This document shows, in pieces, positions 3,724-20,068 of a stretch of 22,679 bases of DNA. The translations under genes and the position numbers were made by a program. Positions within the stretch are counted from its first letter, which is position 1. Every line of letters starts with the position of its first letter. Origin of the DNA: a virus; IMG/VR virus record IMGVR_UViG_3300044858_003657, positions 1 to 22,679 of that record; one strand, 5' to 3'. The notes under the pieces are model-generated. The model was not told where the DNA came from. It saw only the letters and a list, made by a program, of their open reading frames with translations, and searched no databases.

Positions 3724-3752
3724 ATTATAGTTTGTTATTAAATCTTAGGCAA
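3724..3752 (-). promoter_or_regulatory. Predicted sigma70-type promoter, leaderless start for the KTSC-to-TerL operon
   Basis: On the minus strand, TTGCCT (3747-3752) is separated by exactly 17 bases from a perfect TATAAT (3724-3729). Six bases then lead directly to ATG at 3715-3717. Transcription would start at or next to the A of the ATG, giving a leaderless mRNA, and the gene indeed lacks a Shine-Dalgarno. It overlaps the very end of the upstream methyltransferase gene. The -35 matches the consensus at four of six positions. It would provide separate expression of the head/packaging genes. Confidence 0.6.
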
Positions 3753-4297
3753 AGTTGCCAAGCAGCCTTACCTACTACAGGCCAAACTAAGTCTGTAATG
3801 TGGTTGTCTTCCCATGAGTTTCCATCAGGGATAAGGCTAAATACGTTTTCGATGTTGGAGAACCCCATTTTTTTAAGAAGGTCTTCCACCCGTTTCTCAT
3901 GAGCATTCCAGTGATGCGCCGCCCCATTCCACCATTTAACCGATTTGTCTTCTGGAGCAACATCAGCATGCTCCATTGTAGATTCAACTAACCACCAAGG
4001 TAGAGATCCTTGATGCCACAACTTAATCGTCTTTAAAACATCTGGGCAGATAATAAGGATTGGCGCTTCAGGTTTAGCCACACGAGACATTTCCCGAATG
4101 AAGTCTGGAACTTCGTGCCAGTTGATGTGCTCAAGCACATGGCTTAACATCACTGCATCAAAAGTATTGTCTTCAAATGGGTAGGGCTTACCTGGTTCTA
4201 CAAGGACATCAGGTTTGGTTTCATCGTTTTCCCAAACATCTGTGTTGACCCAACCTTTGGCGTAGTGCGTTCCACAGCCTGCATTAAGTAATTTCAC
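3725..4297 (-). CDS. Class I SAM-dependent methyltransferase
   Basis: This is a 190-residue protein of the Methyltransf_11-like group. Motif I is LNAGCG at residues 4-9, almost at the N-terminus. An acidic residue ending strand 2 (D20 in VNTDVW) should bind the SAM ribose. Residues 46-58 (FDAVMLSHVLEHI) form the motif after strand 4 that is characteristic of small-molecule and sugar methyltransferases. The compact size leaves little room for a separate substrate domain. It starts at GTG 4295-4297 in a GTGA overlap with the PhyH-type oxygenase, so the two are translationally coupled. With a glycosyltransferase two genes upstream, a sugar or glycan substrate is plausible, but unproven. Confidence 0.88.
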   Translation of the reverse strand: MKLLNAGCGTHYAKGWVNTDVWENDETKPDVLVEPGKPYPFEDNTFDAVMLSHVLEHINWHEVPDFIREMSRVAKPEAPILIICPDVLKTIKLWHQGSLPWWLVESTMEHADVAPEDKSVKWWNGAAHHWNAHEKRVEDLLKKMGFSNIENVFSLIPDGNSWEDNHITDLVWPVVGKAAWQLCLRFNNKL

Positions 4298-5064
4298 GAA
4301 ACAAGACCACCTTCAATTGGGAAATACCACCCACCGTTATGGCTTTTTGCTGTTGGCATATCTTGACGATGATTGATCCCTGAGTAGTGGGCAATCAAAG
4401 ATTTACGTGGCATACCAACAACATTAGGCTCAGAACCTCGATGTAATAAACGACCATGCCAGAACAACACGTCACCACGCTCTGGTAAGTACGTAACTAC
4501 CTCAGCGTTACGGTTTTCAATCTCCGCTTCAAACAGTGGTGTAAGTAGGCGCTCGCTGTGCTTAGGCCATGTGTGGTCTTGTTCATCTGGGTTGAGCGCA
4601 TCAAGAATCTTTTCTCGTGTTACAACAGGCCAGCGGTGTGAGCCACGAACAAACTGAAACGGACCAGAATCTGGATGAATAGTTTCAAGCGCAATCCAAA
4701 TTGCAACATAATAATCACCAACATGTGCAGGATTTAAATATGTATCTTGATGCCAATTACGGCGAGTAGTAACCCAACCAGTTAGATTTAGATGAAGACC
4801 AGCAGGTTCACCAATGAGATCTTGCATAGTGTTACTAATACCACTGTAAGTAAGAATTTCCAGCACTTCTGGATGCCTGCGATATGGTGTGCAATCAGGC
4901 CATCCACCAGGTCGTTCAGAGTTATTCTCTAGCCAGCACTGTTCGTAGTTGACCATCAACTCTTCTGGAACTAAGTTTTTCTTAATAACAAATCCGTCTG
5001 CGTTCCAATCCATCGGTCCAATGGGTGGTGCAGGTATCGTCAGGTCATCTAGTGTTACAGCCAT
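4294..5064 (-). CDS. PhyH-type Fe(II)/2-oxoglutarate dioxygenase
   Basis: This is a 256-residue protein of the phytanoyl-CoA dioxygenase superfamily, which hydroxylates small molecules or modifies glycans and lipids using Fe(II), O2 and 2-oxoglutarate. The metal triad is present: H105 and D107 in WHQD, and the distal His H208 in LLHRGSEPN. The Arg at 220 in MPRKSL is the expected 2-oxoglutarate anchor. I start at ATG 5062-5064; a TTG directly upstream would add one residue. There is no Shine-Dalgarno, though TACGAT lies six bases upstream and could serve as a -10 for a leaderless start. It is coupled by GTGA to the methyltransferase and follows two glycosyltransferase-type genes. Its substrate is unknown. 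Confidence 0.87.
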   Translation of the reverse strand: MAVTLDDLTIPAPPIGPMDWNADGFVIKKNLVPEELMVNYEQCWLENNSERPGGWPDCTPYRRHPEVLEILTYSGISNTMQDLIGEPAGLHLNLTGWVTTRRNWHQDTYLNPAHVGDYYVAIWIALETIHPDSGPFQFVRGSHRWPVVTREKILDALNPDEQDHTWPKHSERLLTPLFEAEIENRNAEVVTYLPERGDVLFWHGRLLHRGSEPNVVGMPRKSLIAHYSGINHRQDMPTAKSHNGGWYFPIEGGLVS

Positions 5065-5076
5065 CAAAAAATCGTA

Positions 5077-5754
5077 TCACAGGTTTATTTTTGATACCCC
5101 ATCAAAAGGAACACCCTCAAGGTTGAAGTTTACAAAAGGGTTTAAAGAATAAACCTTTGCTCCAAAGTTCTCTAGTATCCAGCGTTTCATCATTACAAGT
5201 TTTGTGTTGTATTCAGACCAAGGATTATCCCCTATTACGTAGCCCGTAAAACGGTCAGCATTGTTTAACTTTCCACAATCAGCCCCGACCAAAACTATGT
5301 GTTTAGCGCCTAAGTAAGCCGCTAAATGTATTGATCCGTGGATACTTGAGTTCCCGATCATTAGTCCAGCCGTAGGTTTGTCCTTCCCAAATGGGTCAAA
5401 ACTATCCCCAGGTGCTCCTGCATTTGAGTCAAATAACACCACGTTTGCTGGAAGGTGTCCTGACCACTCTGCTCTGTTTCCGTGTTCTTTTCTGGGTGTA
5501 AATACAAACCTAGAGGATTCCGCCATCTCTAAGGAGTCTGAGTGGTAATGAGAAAAGGTGAAGTAGTTAGCCAATCCAAATACTTTTCCAACAAAGTTTA
5601 CTCCTACGCAAATTTTGTCATCAAAGAAAGATGGGTCAAGGAAATCTAATGACCCACCAGAACCAAGAACCCAGATCGTTTCACCTTTATGGATGTCTTT
5701 AAAAGACTCCAGGGTTCTTATAGTGCGGAGATTTTCTCCATCACTTCGTTCCAT
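5077..5754 (-). CDS. DUF115/MptE-like protein, probable glycosyltransferase-related
   Basis: This is a 225-residue protein with a Rossmann-like layout. A glycine-rich nucleotide-binding loop GETIWVLGSGGSLDFLD lies at residues 24-40, and a second strand-loop GAKHIVLVGADCG at 149-161. This combination is typical of the DUF115/MptE-like family and of related sialyltransferase-like proteins found beside glycosyltransferases in phages and in surface-polysaccharide clusters. The ATG at 5752-5754 lies 37 bases inside the end of the glycosyltransferase gene, suggesting coupled translation. A role in adding or transferring a sugar is inferred from context. An alternative is a pterin diphosphokinase-like enzyme, the function that gave MptE its name. 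The family call is moderate and the substrate unknown. Confidence 0.62.
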   Translation of the reverse strand: MERSDGENLRTIRTLESFKDIHKGETIWVLGSGGSLDFLDPSFFDDKICVGVNFVGKVFGLANYFTFSHYHSDSLEMAESSRFVFTPRKEHGNRAEWSGHLPANVVLFDSNAGAPGDSFDPFGKDKPTAGLMIGNSSIHGSIHLAAYLGAKHIVLVGADCGKLNNADRFTGYVIGDNPWSEYNTKLVMMKRWILENFGAKVYSLNPFVNFNLEGVPFDGVSKINL

Positions 5755-6800
5755 TCAGCACCACGCACTTCCATTGAAAACTTCTCTTTAACTATCTCGT
5801 AGTTTACCATTGCGTCATCTTTACGCATTTGTGGGTCTAGTAGTTCATTTAAATGGTAAGTCCATTCCTCTGGGCTTTTAGCAATACGCCCGACCCCGGC
5901 ATCAGCAAGGTATTGATACTCGGGGGAATACGAAGAAATAAAAGGAACTCCAGCAGCAGCGTATTCAAGACCTTTAATAAATGACTTGGCATGGTTAAAC
6001 TCAAGATTGTTAAGTGGGACTAACCCAACATCAATTGGTGGAAACAATTTTGGGTAGTCAAGAATTGGGGCCATAGGCATGATGGTTGATTTTTGTCTGT
6101 GGTATCCAATTTGCTCGTAGGCAAACGGTGCTTCGGGGGTATGACCAGAGTGGTGAAACGTCAAATTATGTTTCTTCAAAAATTTAGGAACGTATGGATT
6201 CAGACTTTCTAGGTCTTTAGAACGCCACGGTGTAGCACCAACCCAACCAACAACTGGTGAGCGTTTTGCTTTGTCTTTTCGCAGTCTCCAACGATCAATA
6301 TCTATTCCATTGCGAACTAAAAATACGTTGTTTCTTTTTGCTGCATAGTAGTTATACAAAAACGGAGTAGATGTAATGACAGCATCTGCTTCATAAATCA
6401 TTTTTATGTAATGATCTCGATTGTTGTCTGGGTGGAGTTTGGGGTCTGTTGCCGAATACGCACGGTTAGATGGGTCAAGACCTTCAAAGAAATCGTCAAT
6501 ATCTACAACAATCTTTTGACCTTTAGCCTTTGCTAACCGCACAAGATCAGTAATCTCTTTACGCATTACTAACTTGAATACAAGTATTTCCCAGCCGTGA
6601 ATGGCTTTATCATTGGAAATAATTAATCCGTACCCATACTCATCGTGCCAACGGGGAAACCCAAGACCTGTTTTCCAACCAAACTTTTCTAATTCATTCT
6701 TGGGCAGCAAACAGCGATACCAAGCACAACCATTTGGTTGTAGCGGTTTTGTCCCGTGCGCCCAGTCGTATGTCAAAAAACCAATCGTTTTGTTACCCAT
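5718..6800 (-). CDS. GT4-type (GT-B fold) glycosyltransferase
   Basis: This is a 360-residue glycosyltransferase of normal length for a single-domain-pair GT-B enzyme. The N-terminal acceptor half contains VVDIDDFFEGL at 98-108 and ADAVITSTPFL at 138-148. The linker holds VRNGID at 162-167, a typical domain boundary. The C-terminal donor half starts with GWVGATPWRSKDL at 185 and has KSFIKGLEYAAAGVPFI at 272-288, the nucleotide-sugar binding motif. The usual E-x7-E is present in modified form, with E279 the visible acidic residue. AGAGG precedes the ATG at 6798-6800. The gene lies just downstream of a Ser/Thr-rich secreted protein, a candidate acceptor. Modification of a virion fibre or host surface glycan is also possible. 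Confidence 0.88.
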   Translation of the reverse strand: MGNKTIGFLTYDWAHGTKPLQPNGCAWYRCLLPKNELEKFGWKTGLGFPRWHDEYGYGLIISNDKAIHGWEILVFKLVMRKEITDLVRLAKAKGQKIVVDIDDFFEGLDPSNRAYSATDPKLHPDNNRDHYIKMIYEADAVITSTPFLYNYYAAKRNNVFLVRNGIDIDRWRLRKDKAKRSPVVGWVGATPWRSKDLESLNPYVPKFLKKHNLTFHHSGHTPEAPFAYEQIGYHRQKSTIMPMAPILDYPKLFPPIDVGLVPLNNLEFNHAKSFIKGLEYAAAGVPFISSYSPEYQYLADAGVGRIAKSPEEWTYHLNELLDPQMRKDDAMVNYEIVKEKFSMEVRGAEWNEVMEKISAL

Positions 6801-6809
6801 GAACCTCTA

Positions 6810-6983
6810 CTATTCGTCTGTGTCACTACCCTTTCCAGCAACAGCAACGAAGTGTACAACAAGACCAGCCACAGTAATCCACACACCCCAAGTTAGGGTT
6901 TGACCAGACAGGGTAATAAGAACCATGCCTGTTCCAGCCAGTGTCCAAACTAGCCCATGTACCTCATTCCAAAGTCTTTTCAC
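6810..6983 (-). CDS. Small two-helix membrane protein
   Basis: This is a 57-residue protein starting at GTG 6981-6983 with a strong AAGGAG ribosome binding site six bases upstream. Residues about 10-28 and 30-50 form two hydrophobic segments rich in Leu, Val, Gly, Thr and Trp, separated by a short polar turn (SGQT). The C-terminus is short and charged (KGSDTDE), and the N-terminus begins with Lys-Arg. Two short membrane helices with a charged tail resemble small holins. I see no endolysin next to it, so membrane anchoring of the neighbouring surface-modification enzymes is an equal possibility. It ends nine bases before the glycosyltransferase start. Confidence 0.75.
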   Translation of the reverse strand: MKRLWNEVHGLVWTLAGTGMVLITLSGQTLTWGVWITVAGLVVHFVAVAGKGSDTDE

Positions 6984-7023
6984 AATTCTCCTTAGTTAGG
7001 GTCGTTTTGCCCATTTACGCTTG

Positions 7024-7051
7024 TCTACGGGCCTCCTAGGAGGCTCTACGG
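7024..7051. repeat. 7-bp direct repeats abutting a 14-bp perfect palindrome
   Basis: TCTACGG at 7024-7030 and again at 7045-7051 directly abut the perfect palindrome GCCTCCTAGGAGGC at 7031-7044. A third partial copy, TCTACG, lies at 7069-7074 inside the end of the mucin-like gene. The element fills most of the gap between the secreted-protein gene (ends 7063) and the small membrane-protein gene. As RNA the palindrome could fold into a 5-base-pair stem with a CTAG loop, but no U-tract follows, so a classical terminator is doubtful. A protein-binding site or a trace of recombination is also possible. Confidence 0.6.
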
Positions 7052-7062
7052 GGATTGTAGGG

Positions 7063-8670
7063 TTATCGTCTACGACTAGAAACAACTGGTGCAGGCAGTA
7101 TAAATGATACCGTAGTGGCGGCTACTACAACACGGCGTACCCCTACAGATACCGTAGAATCCGTAGGAACATAGTTATCAAAGCCACCTTCAAAGACGTT
7201 AATTTCTTCTTCAAAGGCTTCTTTTACTTCGGTTGGCGCATCTTGTACAGCATCAACAATTGCTTGTGCTTGTTCGCTAGTTAACTCGCCAGTATCTACT
7301 GTGGCGAAAATCTCAGTTGCTTGGTTAGCAGTTACGTTTTCCAGAACGGCTGCGCTGGTAGCAAGTTCCGTTGCCTGGTCGCTAGAGATTTCTGTAGCCA
7401 AGATGGTGTCCACAACTTCTTGAACTTGTTCTTGGGTAATGCTGTCTGACTCCAAGACATTTAATACTTCTTCAAGAACTTCTGAAGTTATCTCCTCAAG
7501 AGTATCTAGGTTTTCAACCACAGCATCAACAATGGCTTGAACTTGCTCTTCTGTGATGTTGTCTGAGTTCAGAGCGTCTACAACTTCGGACAAAATCTCT
7601 GGCGTAATTTCTGTAATGGTGGTCAACTCCTCAACCACCGCATCTACCTCTTCTTCGGTAATTACGTTATCAATGACAGTATCTTCAGGAATAATTTCTT
7701 CAAGGGTAGTTGTGGTTGTAGTTTCTTCCACAGTAGTATCAGGGTATGTTTCAGTTGTTGTGGTTTCTGGCTCAGTCATTTCTGGCTCTGGCTCAGTTGT
7801 CGTGGTTGTTTCTTCTACAGGCATCTCTTCTATATAAGGTTCCTCTACTACTGTTGTTGTGGTTCCTGTTGGTACTTCCACGACAATTTGAGGCACGGAG
7901 GTGGTCGTAGATGAAGTTGTTGTTGTGGTGCTTGTTGTATTCTCCACTAACGTGGTACTTGTTTCTGGCACTGTCGTGGAAGTCGTGGAAGTCGTGGAAG
8001 TCGTTGAAGAGGTAGTAGATGTTGACTGCTCTGGCGGTAGTGTCGTGGTCGTTGTTGATTCTGGCAATGTTGTTTGGGGTACGGAAGAAGAAGTAGTTGA
8101 CTGAGGAATAGTTGTACTTGTAGTACTTGTAGTTGTTGTAGTACTAGTAGTTGTAGTCGTTGACGATGTTGTAGAACTGGTGGTTGTTGATTCAGCAAGA
8201 CCATTCCATAGAGATAAATTGCTAATTGTAAGATGACCAGGTTGGCAGCATGAGTCAGTTGAGTACTGGCGGAACGTGAAGATGTCGCCCTCGTTGACGG
8301 GTACAGACTTGGTTCCTGTTGCGTTGTTCTGCTGTGTAAGCAAGGTGTAAACGCCGTTGATGCCGTACTGGGGTGGGTCATACACCCAACCATCGTTGGT
8401 TTGATATGCCCAAGTGAAATCTATTGTGTCCACATTGGCAGGAATTGTGGTTTCAATCTTCACCCAATGCGATTGACCCCCACACCCACCATCGTTAGGA
8501 CCATGCAAGATGATGGTGTCATTTATGACTTCTATTGAGCCATTACAGGATGCTGATTGACTGTATGTCCAGTTTCCAAGAGCATCTGCTTTAACGGAAG
8601 TGACTGGTGCAAACCAAGCCAGAAGCGCTACGGGAAAGTAAAACCAAAATCCTTTGCGTAGTTTAGGCAC
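7063..8670 (-). CDS. Secreted mucin-like protein with helical repeats, similar to actinobacterial surface proteins
   Basis: This is a 535-residue protein starting at GTG 8668-8670; a stop three codons upstream in frame excludes earlier starts. Residues 1-29 are a signal peptide (KLRK, hydrophobic core, cleavage near VKA-DA). Residues 30-157 form a beta-rich domain with four Cys (C42, C63, C141, C142). Residues about 160-325 are a Thr/Ser-rich stalk with Pro and later Glu, like mucins. Residues about 336-475 contain acidic helical repeats of the type ITEEQVQAIVDAV. The C-terminus has EGGFDNYVP, then a hydrophobic segment at 513-530 ending SSRRR, which could be a membrane anchor. I recall this architecture from planktonic Actinobacteria, so host origin is likely. 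It may have its own promoter and a downstream hairpin, like a moron gene. Confidence 0.85.
   Translation of the reverse strand: MPKLRKGFWFYFPVALLAWFAPVTSVKADALGNWTYSQSASCNGSIEVINDTIILHGPNDGGCGGQSHWVKIETTIPANVDTIDFTWAYQTNDGWVYDPPQYGINGVYTLLTQQNNATGTKSVPVNEGDIFTFRQYSTDSCCQPGHLTISNLSLWNGLAESTTTSSTTSSTTTTTSTTTTTSTTSTTIPQSTTSSSVPQTTLPESTTTTTLPPEQSTSTTSSTTSTTSTTSTTVPETSTTLVENTTSTTTTTSSTTTSVPQIVVEVPTGTTTTVVEEPYIEEMPVEETTTTTEPEPEMTEPETTTTETYPDTTVEETTTTTTLEEIIPEDTVIDNVITEEEVDAVVEELTTITEITPEILSEVVDALNSDNITEEQVQAIVDAVVENLDTLEEITSEVLEEVLNVLESDSITQEQVQEVVDTILATEISSDQATELATSAAVLENVTANQATEIFATVDTGELTSEQAQAIVDAVQDAPTEVKEAFEEEINVFEGGFDNYVPTDSTVSVGVRRVVVAATTVSFILPAPVVSSRRR
7696..8193 (-). repeat. Low-complexity Thr/Ser codon repeats in the secreted protein
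   Basis: This segment encodes the Thr/Ser stalk and is dominated by ACT/ACA/TCC-type codons, so the plus strand is GT-rich. A clean tandem array lies within it: the 9-base unit TCGTGGAAG at 7974-7982, 7983-7991 and 7992-8000, then one variant copy at 8001-8009. Such tracts change length by slippage, so the stalk may vary among related phages. The long open frames on the opposite strand here are by-products of the repeat. Confidence 0.85.
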
Positions 8671-15549: not shown

Positions 15550-18500
15550 TTATGCCGAAATGTCTCCGACCAATACCCATGTATCGGTTGCTCGTTTGAT
15601 GAGCGTAGCATATGACCACTGTGCTCGCATCTTAAGTCCTGGAGTGGCGTTGATGGTCACTCCACCCGTAGCCACGATTGTGGTTTGACCTGAGCCAGTC
15701 TGAAGAATATTGATTTGCGACCCTACTGGGAATGCTACCGAAGAGTTGAGGGGTACTGTCAAACTGTTTGCGGAGCCGACACCCATCTCCACAACCTTGT
15801 TTTTGTCAGCCAACACGAGTGTGTAAGAAGCAGTTTGGGCGTTTGTTGAAACGTCAGCCAACTTACCAAGTTCAATTGCAGCAGATGCACTGATGTCAGC
15901 GTTCACAATCACACCAGAAGCAATTGCGGTTACGCCAGTATCCGAGATAGTTACATCTCCAGTTTCAGTAACTGCCGTTGGTACGCCAGATGAGTTGTAA
16001 ACAATGATGTTTCCAGCAGTACTTGTTGCCAATTTGCTGAGTGCAATTCCAGCAGATGCGCTGATGTCACCATTGACAATGGTTGCATCGGCAATCATTG
16101 TGCTTGTGACAGTCCCACTATCACTAGTAGTTACAACACCACTTGCGTTAACCCAAGCAGAGCCGTTCCATTTAAGGAAATCACCTGAAGTAGGGGCTGA
16201 AGCAGAAACATTACCAATGTCGTCAAGTGCATTGATTGTTGGAATTGAATCTGGAACCCATGCAGTACCGTTGTACTTAAGGAATTGACCATTTGAAGGT
16301 GCTGAAGCACTGACATCCAAAATGTCATCAAGAGCATTAATTGTTGGAATTGCTGCTGGAATCCACGCTGTTGACGCAGAAACATACTTGAGGAAATGAC
16401 CATCAGTTGGTGCTGATGCAGAAACATCGGATAAAAAGTCAAGGGTAGGAGTTGTTGGACCCCATGTTCCACCACTACCGCCACCAGGAGTAAACGCCAG
16501 AACCTGACCACTAGTACCCCAGTATGGGTCTATTTGAAATACATCTGTACCATTACTGAAATTAATACTATTAGCATTTAATGAATAATAAGGACCATCC
16601 AAGGCGTTTGCCCCAAGAATTTGGTCCACTGTTATATCCAATGTGCCTTCCGATGCAGAGGACATGGAAATACCAGATGTAGCGCTTATTGTTAGGTAGT
16701 CGGTAGTACCAGGAACACCTAAAGTCAATCCTTGACTGTTTGCAACCCATGCGGATGCAGATGAAGACCAAACAAGAGGACTATTATCAACAGGCGCTGA
16801 AGCACTGACATCTGAAATGTTATCCAGTGTTGATGACGTATTCAGGTAATACGAACCCTCTTGCCCATCAAGAAGGTCAGCGTTAAGGTTTGTAACAACC
16901 GTAGACGATGAAACAGACATTGGAGCAGTGCCAGTTGCAATTGTGCTTTCAAGGGTCTTTACAACAAGAGGTGCGGCTGAGTAACTTGCATGAGCAGTAT
17001 TGATTGGGTCAGTTGGTTCTGGTTGATAAGAATCAAAGAACTTCCATTTACCATCTGTGGCATCACGGAATACACCAGCATGTCGGTAAGTCCCATCGTT
17101 GTAGTTTCCAGCAATACCGAGGTCTGGGTTTGAAATGGTGTTTCCATCATTCAAGTAAATAAATGAGTCTTCAATTGCAAGGTTTGTCTCTGTTGTTGTG
17201 TAGTAGACACCACCAACATGCAAGTCAGTACCTATATACATAGCACCAGTTGTTGACAACGAGCCAAATGTTGGTGAAGCAGATGTAGCAACTGATTGAC
17301 CAATTGCAATTGTTGGAGTTGTACCCTCACCAGAGTTGTTGGTGATTGTTAAACCAGTACCAGCAACAAGCGATGCAACATAGTCACCAGTAGTCTTTGT
17401 TCCAAGAGCCACTGTGTTGTCTGGGAGTGTTACAACTCCAGTAAAAGTAGGCGAGGCGCTTGGGGCCTTAGCATCAATCTGTGTTTGGATAGCAGACGTA
17501 ACCCCATCAACGTAGTTAAGTTCAGTTGTTGAAAGCGTAGCCCCATCAAGAATATTTAGTTCTGCGGCTGTTGAAGTAACACCAGTTAAATCCGTTGGAG
17601 CGATAGAAATATTTGTAGAACCATCAAATGATTGACCAGCGATATTTCTTGCTGTCTGTAAGACTGTTGCAGTAGATGCGTTACCAATTACTGGAGCAGT
17701 AACAGCAGCAAAAGTTACCGATGCGCTTGTCCCAACAGCCTGCCCAATGGCGATGGTTGGACTTGAGCCTTCACCAGGAGTGTGTGTTACCGTGACACCA
17801 GTACCAGCAGTTACGTCATTTACGTAGTTGCCAGTCGTGTCTGTGCCAAGCGCTACAGAGTTTGGTTCAATTGTTGCTGTGAGAGTTGCATTCCCAAGAT
17901 TGGTAAATGTTGCTGAACCACTAAGGTCACCACCAAGTGTGATTACTGGGGATGCAGTAGCACTTGCTTTATTATCTAACTGGGTTTGAATAGCCGAAGT
18001 TACGCCATCCACATAGTTAAGTTCTGTGGCAGTAGCGGTTACACCAGTAAGGTCAGTTGGGGCAATAGATATATCAGCAGAACCGTTAAATGCTTGTCCA
18101 GCAATGTTGCGAGAAGTCTGTAATGTGGTCGCTGAAGTGGCGTTTCCAAGCAATGTTGCTGTTACCTGACCAAATGTTACGCTTGCGCTAGTACCTACAT
18201 CTTGCCCAATTGCAATTGTGGCGTTAGAACCCTCACCAGGAGTATGTGTAATGGTTACACCAGTTCCTTGGGTTAGGTCTACCATGTAGTTACCAGTGGT
18301 GTCGGTTCCTAGATTAATAACTTCAGGTTCCCAACCAGTGTTTACCCATTTAAGGAAGGCATTTTCACCAGGAGCAGACGCAGATACGTCTGTTAATGAA
18401 CCCAATGTTGAATTCATAGTTGAAAGAATTTCTACGTTGGAACTTCCATTAAAAGGCACTGTTCCAGTTACTGCCCCAGTTAACTGAATGTTTCTTGGGG

Positions 18501-19563
18501 TAGCAAGTGTTGTGGCTGTATCAGCATTACCTGTAAACTCTCCGTAAACCCTAGCAAAAGTAACAGAAGCACTGGTTGCTACGTCTTGTCCAATGGACAG
18601 AGTGTTTCCAGTTTTTGTAATGCCCGTACCAGCAATAATGTTTGCTGTACCTGTAAATTGAGCAAAGACGATATCATCAGTACCAATTTCATGGTGTTGT
18701 TCTGTTCCATTACCTGTACCAGTTGAACTAACAAGAAATCCTTGGTTACCGTTCACAGAACCTGAACCAATGTAACAAGCATCTCCACGAACAACATTGT
18801 CTTCAAAACCATCAAAGTCTATTGCTCTTGTAAGAATGTACACAGCACTAGCAGAACCCTGGTCTGAAACAAGGTAGATACCGTTTTGCGTTGCATCAGC
18901 CTGATTCTTAATCAGAACTCTGTCATTTGTTGTTGCATTCACACCATCAATAGACAAACGACCATTTTGAGTAGCGGTAAGTGTTGCCCCAACACCACCT
19001 GTTCCGTTGTCGTAATCTGGTAGATTAGGCAAAATTGTTGCTGTTGCAAGTTTTACAGACAAATGCCAGTTGATACCTGCGGCAATAGCATCAACATACT
19101 GTTTTGTTACAGCATGGTTTGATGAAACTGGGCTGTTAGTAAGTGATACTTGAGCAAAAGTTACAGAGGCAGATGTACCTACCGCTTGACCAATTGCAAG
19201 TGTTGGGGTAGAACCTTCACCTGAATTGTTTGTAATGGTCAGACCAGTACCAGCAACCAGTGACTCAACATAGTTACCAATGGTGTCGGTAGCAAGGTTT
19301 ACGGCATCGTTGTACCAAACAGATGAGGAGTTGTTATAACGGAGAAAATCACCTGCGGCTGCTTCCGTAATAGTTACATCAAGTAATTCTGCAAGTTTTG
19401 TGTCTTCGTAAACAAAGTAGTCAGTGCTGGACCAGTTAGCGCCAGTACCAATTTTCATCCTGCCACTGTCTGTTTCGTAGCAAAGTTCACCAGCAAGAAG
19501 TGCTGGGTTAGCACTAGTCCAGTTTGCTGCAGTATCTCTACGTATTTGGATTCTAGAAGCCAT
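15550..19563 (-). CDS. Giant repetitive tail fibre / receptor-binding protein
   Basis: This is a 1337-residue protein. I start at ATG 19561-19563, which has GGAGG eight bases upstream; a longer frame to 19617 would lie inside the upstream gene. The N-terminus (ASRIQIRRDTAANW...LAGELCYETDSGRMKIGTG) resembles the N-terminal domain of major tropism determinant-type fibres. Residues about 150-325 share a module with the 434-residue fibre. The central part is built from repeats containing GTSASVTF, APTDLTGVT and TPGEGS. Near residues 1000-1150 are three SDVSASAP-type repeats. The last 97 residues are the NAQT module that is duplicated in the 235-residue protein. Trimeric fibre architecture and a role in host recognition are expected. 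Confidence 0.9.
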   Translation of the reverse strand: MASRIQIRRDTAANWTSANPALLAGELCYETDSGRMKIGTGANWSSTDYFVYEDTKLAELLDVTITEAAAGDFLRYNNSSSVWYNDAVNLATDTIGNYVESLVAGTGLTITNNSGEGSTPTLAIGQAVGTSASVTFAQVSLTNSPVSSNHAVTKQYVDAIAAGINWHLSVKLATATILPNLPDYDNGTGGVGATLTATQNGRLSIDGVNATTNDRVLIKNQADATQNGIYLVSDQGSASAVYILTRAIDFDGFEDNVVRGDACYIGSGSVNGNQGFLVSSTGTGNGTEQHHEIGTDDIVFAQFTGTANIIAGTGITKTGNTLSIGQDVATSASVTFARVYGEFTGNADTATTLATPRNIQLTGAVTGTVPFNGSSNVEILSTMNSTLGSLTDVSASAPGENAFLKWVNTGWEPEVINLGTDTTGNYMVDLTQGTGVTITHTPGEGSNATIAIGQDVGTSASVTFGQVTATLLGNATSATTLQTSRNIAGQAFNGSADISIAPTDLTGVTATATELNYVDGVTSAIQTQLDNKASATASPVITLGGDLSGSATFTNLGNATLTATIEPNSVALGTDTTGNYVNDVTAGTGVTVTHTPGEGSSPTIAIGQAVGTSASVTFAAVTAPVIGNASTATVLQTARNIAGQSFDGSTNISIAPTDLTGVTSTAAELNILDGATLSTTELNYVDGVTSAIQTQIDAKAPSASPTFTGVVTLPDNTVALGTKTTGDYVASLVAGTGLTITNNSGEGTTPTIAIGQSVATSASPTFGSLSTTGAMYIGTDLHVGGVYYTTTETNLAIEDSFIYLNDGNTISNPDLGIAGNYNDGTYRHAGVFRDATDGKWKFFDSYQPEPTDPINTAHASYSAAPLVVKTLESTIATGTAPMSVSSSTVVTNLNADLLDGQEGSYYLNTSSTLDNISDVSASAPVDNSPLVWSSSASAWVANSQGLTLGVPGTTDYLTISATSGISMSSASEGTLDITVDQILGANALDGPYYSLNANSINFSNGTDVFQIDPYWGTSGQVLAFTPGGGSGGTWGPTTPTLDFLSDVSASAPTDGHFLKYVSASTAWIPAAIPTINALDDILDVSASAPSNGQFLKYNGTAWVPDSIPTINALDDIGNVSASAPTSGDFLKWNGSAWVNASGVVTTSDSGTVTSTMIADATIVNGDISASAGIALSKLATSTAGNIIVYNSSGVPTAVTETGDVTISDTGVTAIASGVIVNADISASAAIELGKLADVSTNAQTASYTLVLADKNKVVEMGVGSANSLTVPLNSSVAFPVGSQINILQTGSGQTTIVATGGVTINATPGLKMRAQWSYATLIKRATDTWVLVGDISA
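15553..15843 (-). repeat. NAQT fibre module, third copy (C-terminus of giant fibre)
   Basis: The final 97 codons encode the same module as the two copies at 10136-10423 and 10472-10765. The stretch CAGTTTGGGCGTTT at its start is identical to the copy at 10410-10423. This points to domain duplication or shuffling between fibre genes. Confidence 0.75.
17461..18280 (-). repeat. Two long imperfect repeats (~460-bp period) within the giant fibre
   Basis: Two copies about 460 bases apart share the same peptide landmarks: LNYVDGVTSAIQTQ, APTDLTGVT, ARNIAGQ or SRNIAGQ, TPGEGS and GTSASVTF. For example the segment at 17583-17659 matches 18044-18120 along its length with scattered substitutions. Further weaker copies flank them. 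Boundaries are approximate. Confidence 0.7.
18589..19116 (-). repeat. Module shared with the 434-residue fibre (copy in giant fibre)
   Basis: This segment encodes H-(V/I)-TK-YVDA, L-IDGV, DRVLIKNQADATQNGIYLV and a GF(L/I)VSS or STNG turn. The partner module is at 20567-21019 in the neighbouring fibre gene. The two copies are clearly diverged, so this is an old duplication or a common fibre module. Confidence 0.72.
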
Positions 19564-20068
19564 TAGCATTTCCTCCGTCAATTGGTGACATATCAAAGGT
19601 ACTACTTGCTGTACCACCGTCTAAATAGCCTGAAAAACCACCACCACCACTGTTGTCTTGGTTTACCCAGTTTGTACCGTTATATGCAAGAACTTGCCCG
19701 TTAGCAGCAGTTGTAATAATAACATCTGACAGGTCATCAATGGAGCCAACGGTGCTGGCAACCCCTGGGGCAAATTTAGTTCCATCAAATTTAAGAACTT
19801 GATTTGTAGTTGCACCCGTAGGGTCTATTTCAATACTGTCTACAAATAAAACAGGTGCTTTAAAAGTGTCATCTGTTTTAAGAACATTAGCAGAGTCACG
19901 GTATAGGTTTACATCGCCAACAGCAGAACCATCTCCCCACGTAAGACGACCACCTGCTTCAACTTTTAAGCGAGCATATGTGTCTTGGTCAACATAGACA
20001 GTTACAGCGTCAGAACCAGCAGATGATAACTGCTTAACAGTGATAGGTACTGTAAATTTCTGTGCCAC
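19553..20068 (-). CDS. Short tail fibre-like protein
   Basis: This is a 171-residue protein starting at GTG 20066-20068; the start is supported by MAQKF, identical to the neighbouring 434-residue fibre. The middle is beta-rich. A segment at about 110-140 with LSDVIITTAANGQVLAYNGTNWVNQ is the same type of fibre repeat found in the giant fibre (SDVSASAP-FLKYN-W). The C-terminus is glycine-rich (SGGGGFSGYLDGG...DGGNANGF), typical of linkers or tips in aquatic phage fibres. It overlaps the giant fibre start by 11 bases, implying coupling. No strong Shine-Dalgarno: GAGG lies only two bases from the GTG. Confidence 0.8.
   Translation of the reverse strand: MAQKFTVPITVKQLSSAGSDAVTVYVDQDTYARLKVEAGGRLTWGDGSAVGDVNLYRDSANVLKTDDTFKAPVLFVDSIEIDPTGATTNQVLKFDGTKFAPGVASTVGSIDDLSDVIITTAANGQVLAYNGTNWVNQDNSGGGGFSGYLDGGTASSTFDMSPIDGGNANGF

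Follow-up and report, generated by a model that had tools for sequence, protein, structure and literature searches.

A conserved spacer element between a secreted-protein gene and a small membrane-protein gene in a group of related uncultivated phages

Translationally coupled gene pairs with leader hairpins are a known class of gene arrangement. Another described system which comes close to the locus presented here is the SAS/ESAS of cluster K mycobacteriophages, a short conserved motif with an AGGAG core. There are 11-19 copies of SAS per genome, typically placed 3-7 bp before start codons, and about half of them have inverted repeats upstream (PMC3203893). The 28-bp element of this work lies between two genes of a virus genome and, as judged from comparison with its relatives, is this genome's version of a conserved spacer piece in one group of related uncultivated phages.

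The window analysed comprises an entire virus record (IMGVR_UViG_3300044858_003657; 22,679 bases). On the minus strand a secreted-type gene is followed by a 79-nt spacer, a gene for a 57-aa protein and a glycosyltransferase-like gene. The upstream gene (7063..8670, minus strand; TAA stop at 7063-7065) encodes a secreted-type protein of 535 aa that has long Ser/Thr runs, a Ser/Thr-rich linker, a conserved C-terminal domain, a hydrophobic stretch and an RRR end (the terminus reads VVSSRRR). The downstream gene (6810..6983, minus strand; GTG start at 6983-6981) encodes a putative membrane protein of 57 aa with two hydrophobic stretches detected by eye, which belongs to phrog_29041, a family of unknown function; its Shine-Dalgarno-like sequence AAGGAG is at 6988..6993 (minus strand). 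The glycosyltransferase-like gene (5718-6800, minus strand) comes next and is adjoined at 3725-5754 (minus strand) by a row composed of a methyltransferase, a dioxygenase of PhyH type and an MptE-like match that is weak and below cutoff, located between the membrane-protein gene and the terminase. Elsewhere in the window (15550-19617, minus strand) is a gene for 1355 aa, whose product carries the major tropism determinant N-terminal domain (Mtd_N).

The element is found by exact sequence match at 7024..7051 (minus strand). TCTACGG at 7024-7030, GCCTCCTAGGAGGC at 7031-7044 and TCTACGG at 7045-7051 are all exact and abut each other, which confirms the gapless arrangement of repeat, palindrome and repeat described in the sequence-only reading of this DNA. 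On the transcript the upstream repeat, CCGTAGA (7045..7051, minus strand), comes first, followed by the perfect 14-bp palindrome (7031..7044, no strand), which as RNA would be a 5-bp hairpin GCCUC-CUAG-GAGGC, and by the downstream repeat CCGTAGA (7024..7030, minus strand). The conserved core is TAGGAGGCCCGTAGACAAG at 7020..7038 (minus strand). The same reading had placed the element exactly at the end of the secreted-protein gene; it is close to it, but lies 11 nt past the TAA stop, inside the spacer and 40 nt from the downstream start. The third, partial TCTACG that had been pointed out is present at 7069-7074 (minus strand), but represents the Arg-Arg codons CGT AGA in the end of the upstream gene.

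How unusual this arrangement is was estimated by simulating the window 100 times with a first-order Markov model. Perfect palindromes of at least 14 bp occurred at a mean of 1.43 per simulation, with at least one in 80 of the 100 simulations, and the window itself has two (1484-1497 and 7031-7044); the 14-bp palindrome alone is therefore at chance level. Only the combination of repeat and palindrome is unusual, 7-bp direct repeats abutting a palindrome of at least 10 bp being found once in the window and in none of the 100 simulations, by a test framed after the element had been seen. The window contains no second copy of the element when up to three mismatches are allowed.

Relatives were fetched through two neighbour genes, the glycosyltransferase (20 loci) and the 57-aa protein (80 of 443 loci), and are designated here by L numbers. 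In L016-L020, out of the 20 glycosyltransferase loci, the sequence upstream of that gene looks unrelated. The element was counted in the window and the 80 loci of the 57-aa protein, from which L033, L038 and L099 were dropped as they have less than 120 nt upstream, leaving 78 rows; many of the 77 relative loci are near-copies from different samples, and the rows with the element reduce to 11 distinct ones. Something is conserved at this site: among the matches listed, 18 of the 77 relative loci have the core in this position, which with the window makes 19 of 78 rows and leaves 59 without, and in these 59 the best match to the 19-nt core is 12 out of 19. The spacer measures 79-97 nt in rows with the core versus -8 to 39 nt in rows without it (78 rows, among the matches listed). 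Seven records of 84-98 kb were searched for the core with up to three mismatches, and four of them carry one copy each and the other three none. Viral contigs were also scanned with a pattern for the element's right half, which yielded 19 stretches, 18 in this context and one, L118, in unrelated sequence; since the scan required the right half it is unable to show that this half is conserved, for which the gene-based loci serve.

The rows differ in how much of the element they keep. Six of the 11 distinct rows, the window among them, have the upstream repeat as CCGTAGA; it reads ACGTAGA in L035, L039 and L044 and TCTCAGA in L034 and is missing from L037, and is thus changed or lost in five of 11 variants. 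The palindrome is perfect in six variants; L029 and L031 differ in the loop alone, and the stem is damaged in L037, L039 and L044. The right half reads TAGGAGSCCCGTAGACAAG in nine of the 11 rows and CTCGTAGACAAG in L029 and L030, L029 having also TTGGAG; the downstream repeat is intact in nine variants and is TCGTAGA in L029 and L030. In each of the 11 rows the two CGTA, one in the gene end and one in the core, are 45 nt apart; the remaining spacer is variable in length, the core being located 36-51 nt before the start codon. Within the 3' end of the upstream gene, ACTACGGTATCATTTATA (7099..7116, minus strand) is invariant in the 11 element-bearing rows, and its CTACGG is able to pair with CCGTAG of the core.

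Over the 55 pairs of these 11 rows the identity of the element is 0.86, with 0.91 for the right 17 nt and 0.78 for the left 11 nt, while in the same pairs the fourfold-degenerate sites within the initial 138 nt of the gene for the 57-aa protein reach an identity of 0.64. The element is more similar than the fourfold sites in 51 of the 55 pairs, which are not independent of each other. Compared individually with the window, on fourfold samples which are small (23-31 sites), the binomial p is 3e-5 for L031, 2e-4 for L032, 1e-3 for L039 and L044, 6e-3 for L035 and 0.01 for L034. For L026 two yardsticks were available, the fourfold sites of the glycosyltransferase gene (identity 0.54, p 3e-8) and a nearer one of 0.84 (p 0.007, i.e. 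7e-3), and the latter was used. The comparison with the window alone is not significant for L037 (p 0.08), L030 (p 0.20) and L029 (p 0.44). Taken as a whole, these identities make selection on the element likely, a signal which local recombination could mimic. The palindrome and the upstream repeat are mostly incidental, and the better conserved part is the asymmetric right half.

The secreted proteins of these phages end in two types, the window-like PTDS...SVG and AIGS...PVS. In the tree of the C-terminus two starred halves are found, one with seven element and three element-free rows and the other with four of each. In the tree of the 57-aa gene a starred group of eight, made up of seven close element-free rows and L103, is without any element row; the rows with the element form no single resolved clade, five more distant element-free rows being placed among them, and the element accounts for two changes on a tree with many open forks. 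L029 and L030 combine a PVS-type end with the element (26 and 27 of 28 positions) and a membrane-protein gene close to that of the window. As the element occurs with both C-terminal types of the secreted protein, and the starred clade of the 57-aa gene is without it, the element is linked to the downstream gene and does not depend on the type of secreted gene.

Shortly ahead of the gene end lies a conserved coding stretch, ACTACGGTATCATTT (window 7102-7116, minus strand), which is a possible place of crossover. It is identical in 18 close rows, which were chosen by eye from the relatives of the 57-aa protein and located by the CTACGGTATCATTT motif itself, so that this identity is partly selected. 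L029 and L030 look recombinant across this stretch, and it may be the crossover point for swapping the C-terminal types.

The same secreted-protein tail is present upstream in 53 of the 59 core-free rows (by a simple pattern, among the matches listed); among the remaining six the domain is present in L056, a different ORF, of 75 aa, is found in L057-L059, and L067 and L069 do not extend far enough for a judgement. The element had been suggested to mark the junction of an acquired segment. In the comparison of genomes with and without the element both C-terminal types of the secreted protein are found in each, and because the secreted gene is present in either case the element is not an acquisition junction.

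In many other relatives the two genes overlap or are a few nt apart. In phage DSL-LC01 (OQ999401) the secreted C-terminal domain and a segment like the 57-aa protein form one 944-aa ORF (L121:2331-5165), and a similar fusion is found at L122:2-1738, on a MAG contig of 21 kb labelled Gammaproteobacteria which may be phage DNA. The fusion in DSL-LC01 and L122 suggests that the two proteins work as a pair. The ORF after the fused protein of L122 (1812-2636) looks by eye like a peptidoglycan-cutting endolysin with a binding domain, and would put the protein pair beside lysis genes. When the genome collection was scanned with two short peptide patterns from the C-terminal domain, an approach that would miss distant relatives, L122 came out as the one relative. 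The secreted gene had been called host-like, a description which was not supported by this two-pattern scan; host origin of the gene was considered and rejected, the lone genome-collection match carrying both proteins fused.

The explanation we prefer, to which we would give somewhat less than an even chance, is that the element is a lineage-specific mRNA leader element which sets the translation of the 57-aa membrane-protein gene. The spacer lies between two co-directional and probably co-transcribed genes of an uncultivated phage lineage. In relatives where these genes overlap, follow closely or, in two distant cases, are fused, translation of the membrane protein would be coupled to that of the secreted protein. 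In the element lineage, with its spacer of 79-97 nt as the presumably derived state, the element would separate the two genes and, acting as RNA through its SD-like AGGAG, the hairpin predicted for most variants and the CCGTAGACAAG tail, would set the amount of membrane protein made from the gene's own AAGGAG site.

RNA predictions bear on this reading in both directions. The hairpin is predicted in eight of the 11 variants with a mean pair probability of 0.47-1.0; it reaches at least 0.8 in seven rows and 0.47 in the window. At 0.11 or less it is broken in L037, L039 and L044, which is a point against a leader element. Of the hairpin cells in the 11-row alignment, 90.9% are paired. Covariation for the given structure, again in 11 rows, amounts to one both-sided change and is not significant, 146 of 500 shuffles being as high, and folding of the spacer is not clearly better than that of shuffles (z -1.24 and -1.03). 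Sequestration of the AAGGAG site by the first arm of the hairpin was considered and discarded, with a predicted probability of 0.35 in the window and 0.00-0.14 in the other ten rows. A search of Rfam 15 over 6900-7200 gave nothing above the gathering score, and one sub-threshold match at 6926-6962 is on the other strand and outside the element.

The main rival to a leader element is a relic of a partial duplication, in which the right half would be a diverged second copy of the 3' end of the upstream gene (CTAG..CGTAGACAA), left from an exchange or duplication of the C-terminal module and without present function. We consider this possible but doubtful. In L037 the gene end matches the row's own spacer (CCCGTAGACAA is identical, and 0 of 1000 shuffles are as good), the CGTAGA copies of the window are 24 and 21 nt apart and in frame, and the gene end plus spacer of the element-free L046, L049, L051 and L052 align to the right copy with 0 or 1 of 1000 shuffles as good, in a score that includes the shared ribosome-binding site and start. 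When the ribosome-binding site is excluded, however, just L049 against the window, L030, L032 and L037 is left, at about 1-2%, and the other sister comparisons are mostly not above shuffles. The gene end of the window compared to its own spacer is at chance (359 of 1000), and a sequence without function should not beat fourfold sites in conservation.

It is unlikely that the element is a DNA site at which a phage or host protein, such as a repressor or an activator, would read the palindrome or the core. The perfect palindrome of six of the 11 variants and a conserved core in single copy in the records searched are what such a site may look like, but symmetry is lost in L029, L031, L037, L039 and L044 and it is the asymmetric right half which is better kept. 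A scan for sigma-70 promoters, which covers that promoter type alone, lists no promoter-like site between the two genes. Slightly less likely again is a transcription terminator or processing hairpin between the genes. A GC-rich 5-bp hairpin after a stop codon would fit, and L037 has, by eye, a second hairpin and then a T-rich stretch further down; still, on the minus strand no T run follows the hairpin, the terminator scan lists none at the element, and in three of the 11 variants the hairpin is not predicted.

A further reading, rather improbable in our estimate, has a lineage-specific RNA element spanning the stop codon of the secreted-protein gene, in which CTACGG of the coding end would pair with CCGTAG of the core and the hairpin would be stacked inside, replacing as a new switch the coupling or fusion seen in relatives. 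The CTACGG/CCGTAG helix is 100% paired across the alignment, yet its sequence hardly varies; in nine of the 11 rows it is predicted with a probability of no more than 0.20, and it is likely just in L035 (0.64) and L037 (0.87), which counts against the leader element preferred above as well. If true, such a switch would set the proportions of the secreted protein and its membrane partner in lysis or assembly.

The sequence-only reading had also offered a mini-insertion with target-site duplication or a site-specific recombination site, on the strength of the abutting repeats. In this genome direct repeats do flank a palindrome, and the single CGTAGACAA at the gene end of the element-free L049 can be read as the empty site of a 45-nt insert. 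Against this, the upstream abutting repeat is not kept as a pair with the downstream one, every carrier seen has the element at the same place, no second copy exists in the window or, by core, in the seven records searched, and the L049 match is short, lies in coding bases and is weak outside the ribosome-binding site. We regard this origin as very improbable, and the case illustrates that a repeat and palindrome may catch the eye without being a site of insertion or recombination.

A frameshift adding an out-of-frame C-terminal extension, a +1-frame tail that would run across the element past the gene stop, is hardly credible. Read by eye, the +1 frame has no stop between the end of the gene and the far side of the core, and most rows finish in PVDK. 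Changes are, however, rarest at third positions of the +1 frame, inspection by eye shows neither a start codon nor a slippery site in common, and L044 has a +1 stop shortly upstream. The 11 changes among eight close rows, a small number, fall 2, 3 and 6 on positions 1, 2 and 3 of frame 0, which equals 3, 6 and 2 in the +1 frame; this substitution pattern supports coding neither in frame 0, which has stops, nor in +1. After the core, the seven further close rows have TAG in the +1 frame, in place of which the window has TGG (7009-7014, minus strand); the longer +1 open stretch of the window is probably neutral.

Compared to the known systems, the element shares features with each. The variants of L037, L039 and L044 have TAGGAGCCC in common with GGGATAGGAGCCC of SAS (PMC3203893). 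The element differs from SAS in being found as one copy per carrying record (four of seven records, with none in three), and in that its AGGAG ends 49-64 nt before the start (11 rows). Identity with SAS/ESAS was considered for TAGGAGCCC and is ruled out by copy number and distance to the start codon. The likeness to translationally coupled pairs lies in the neighbouring position and common direction of the two genes, which in many relatives overlap or almost do so, and in a hairpin-capable spacer here; the difference is that the hairpin is not kept in all carriers. DSL-LC01 (OQ999401), the one annotated phage record matched, shares a similar secreted C-terminal domain and membrane-protein segment, but has both parts in one ORF and so no intervening spacer. 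The comparison ties the secreted protein and the small membrane protein of these uncultivated phages together as a unit, adjacent in many and fused in the two cases found, and if the spacer controls the ratio of the two proteins it would offer a handle on lysis or assembly in these phages.
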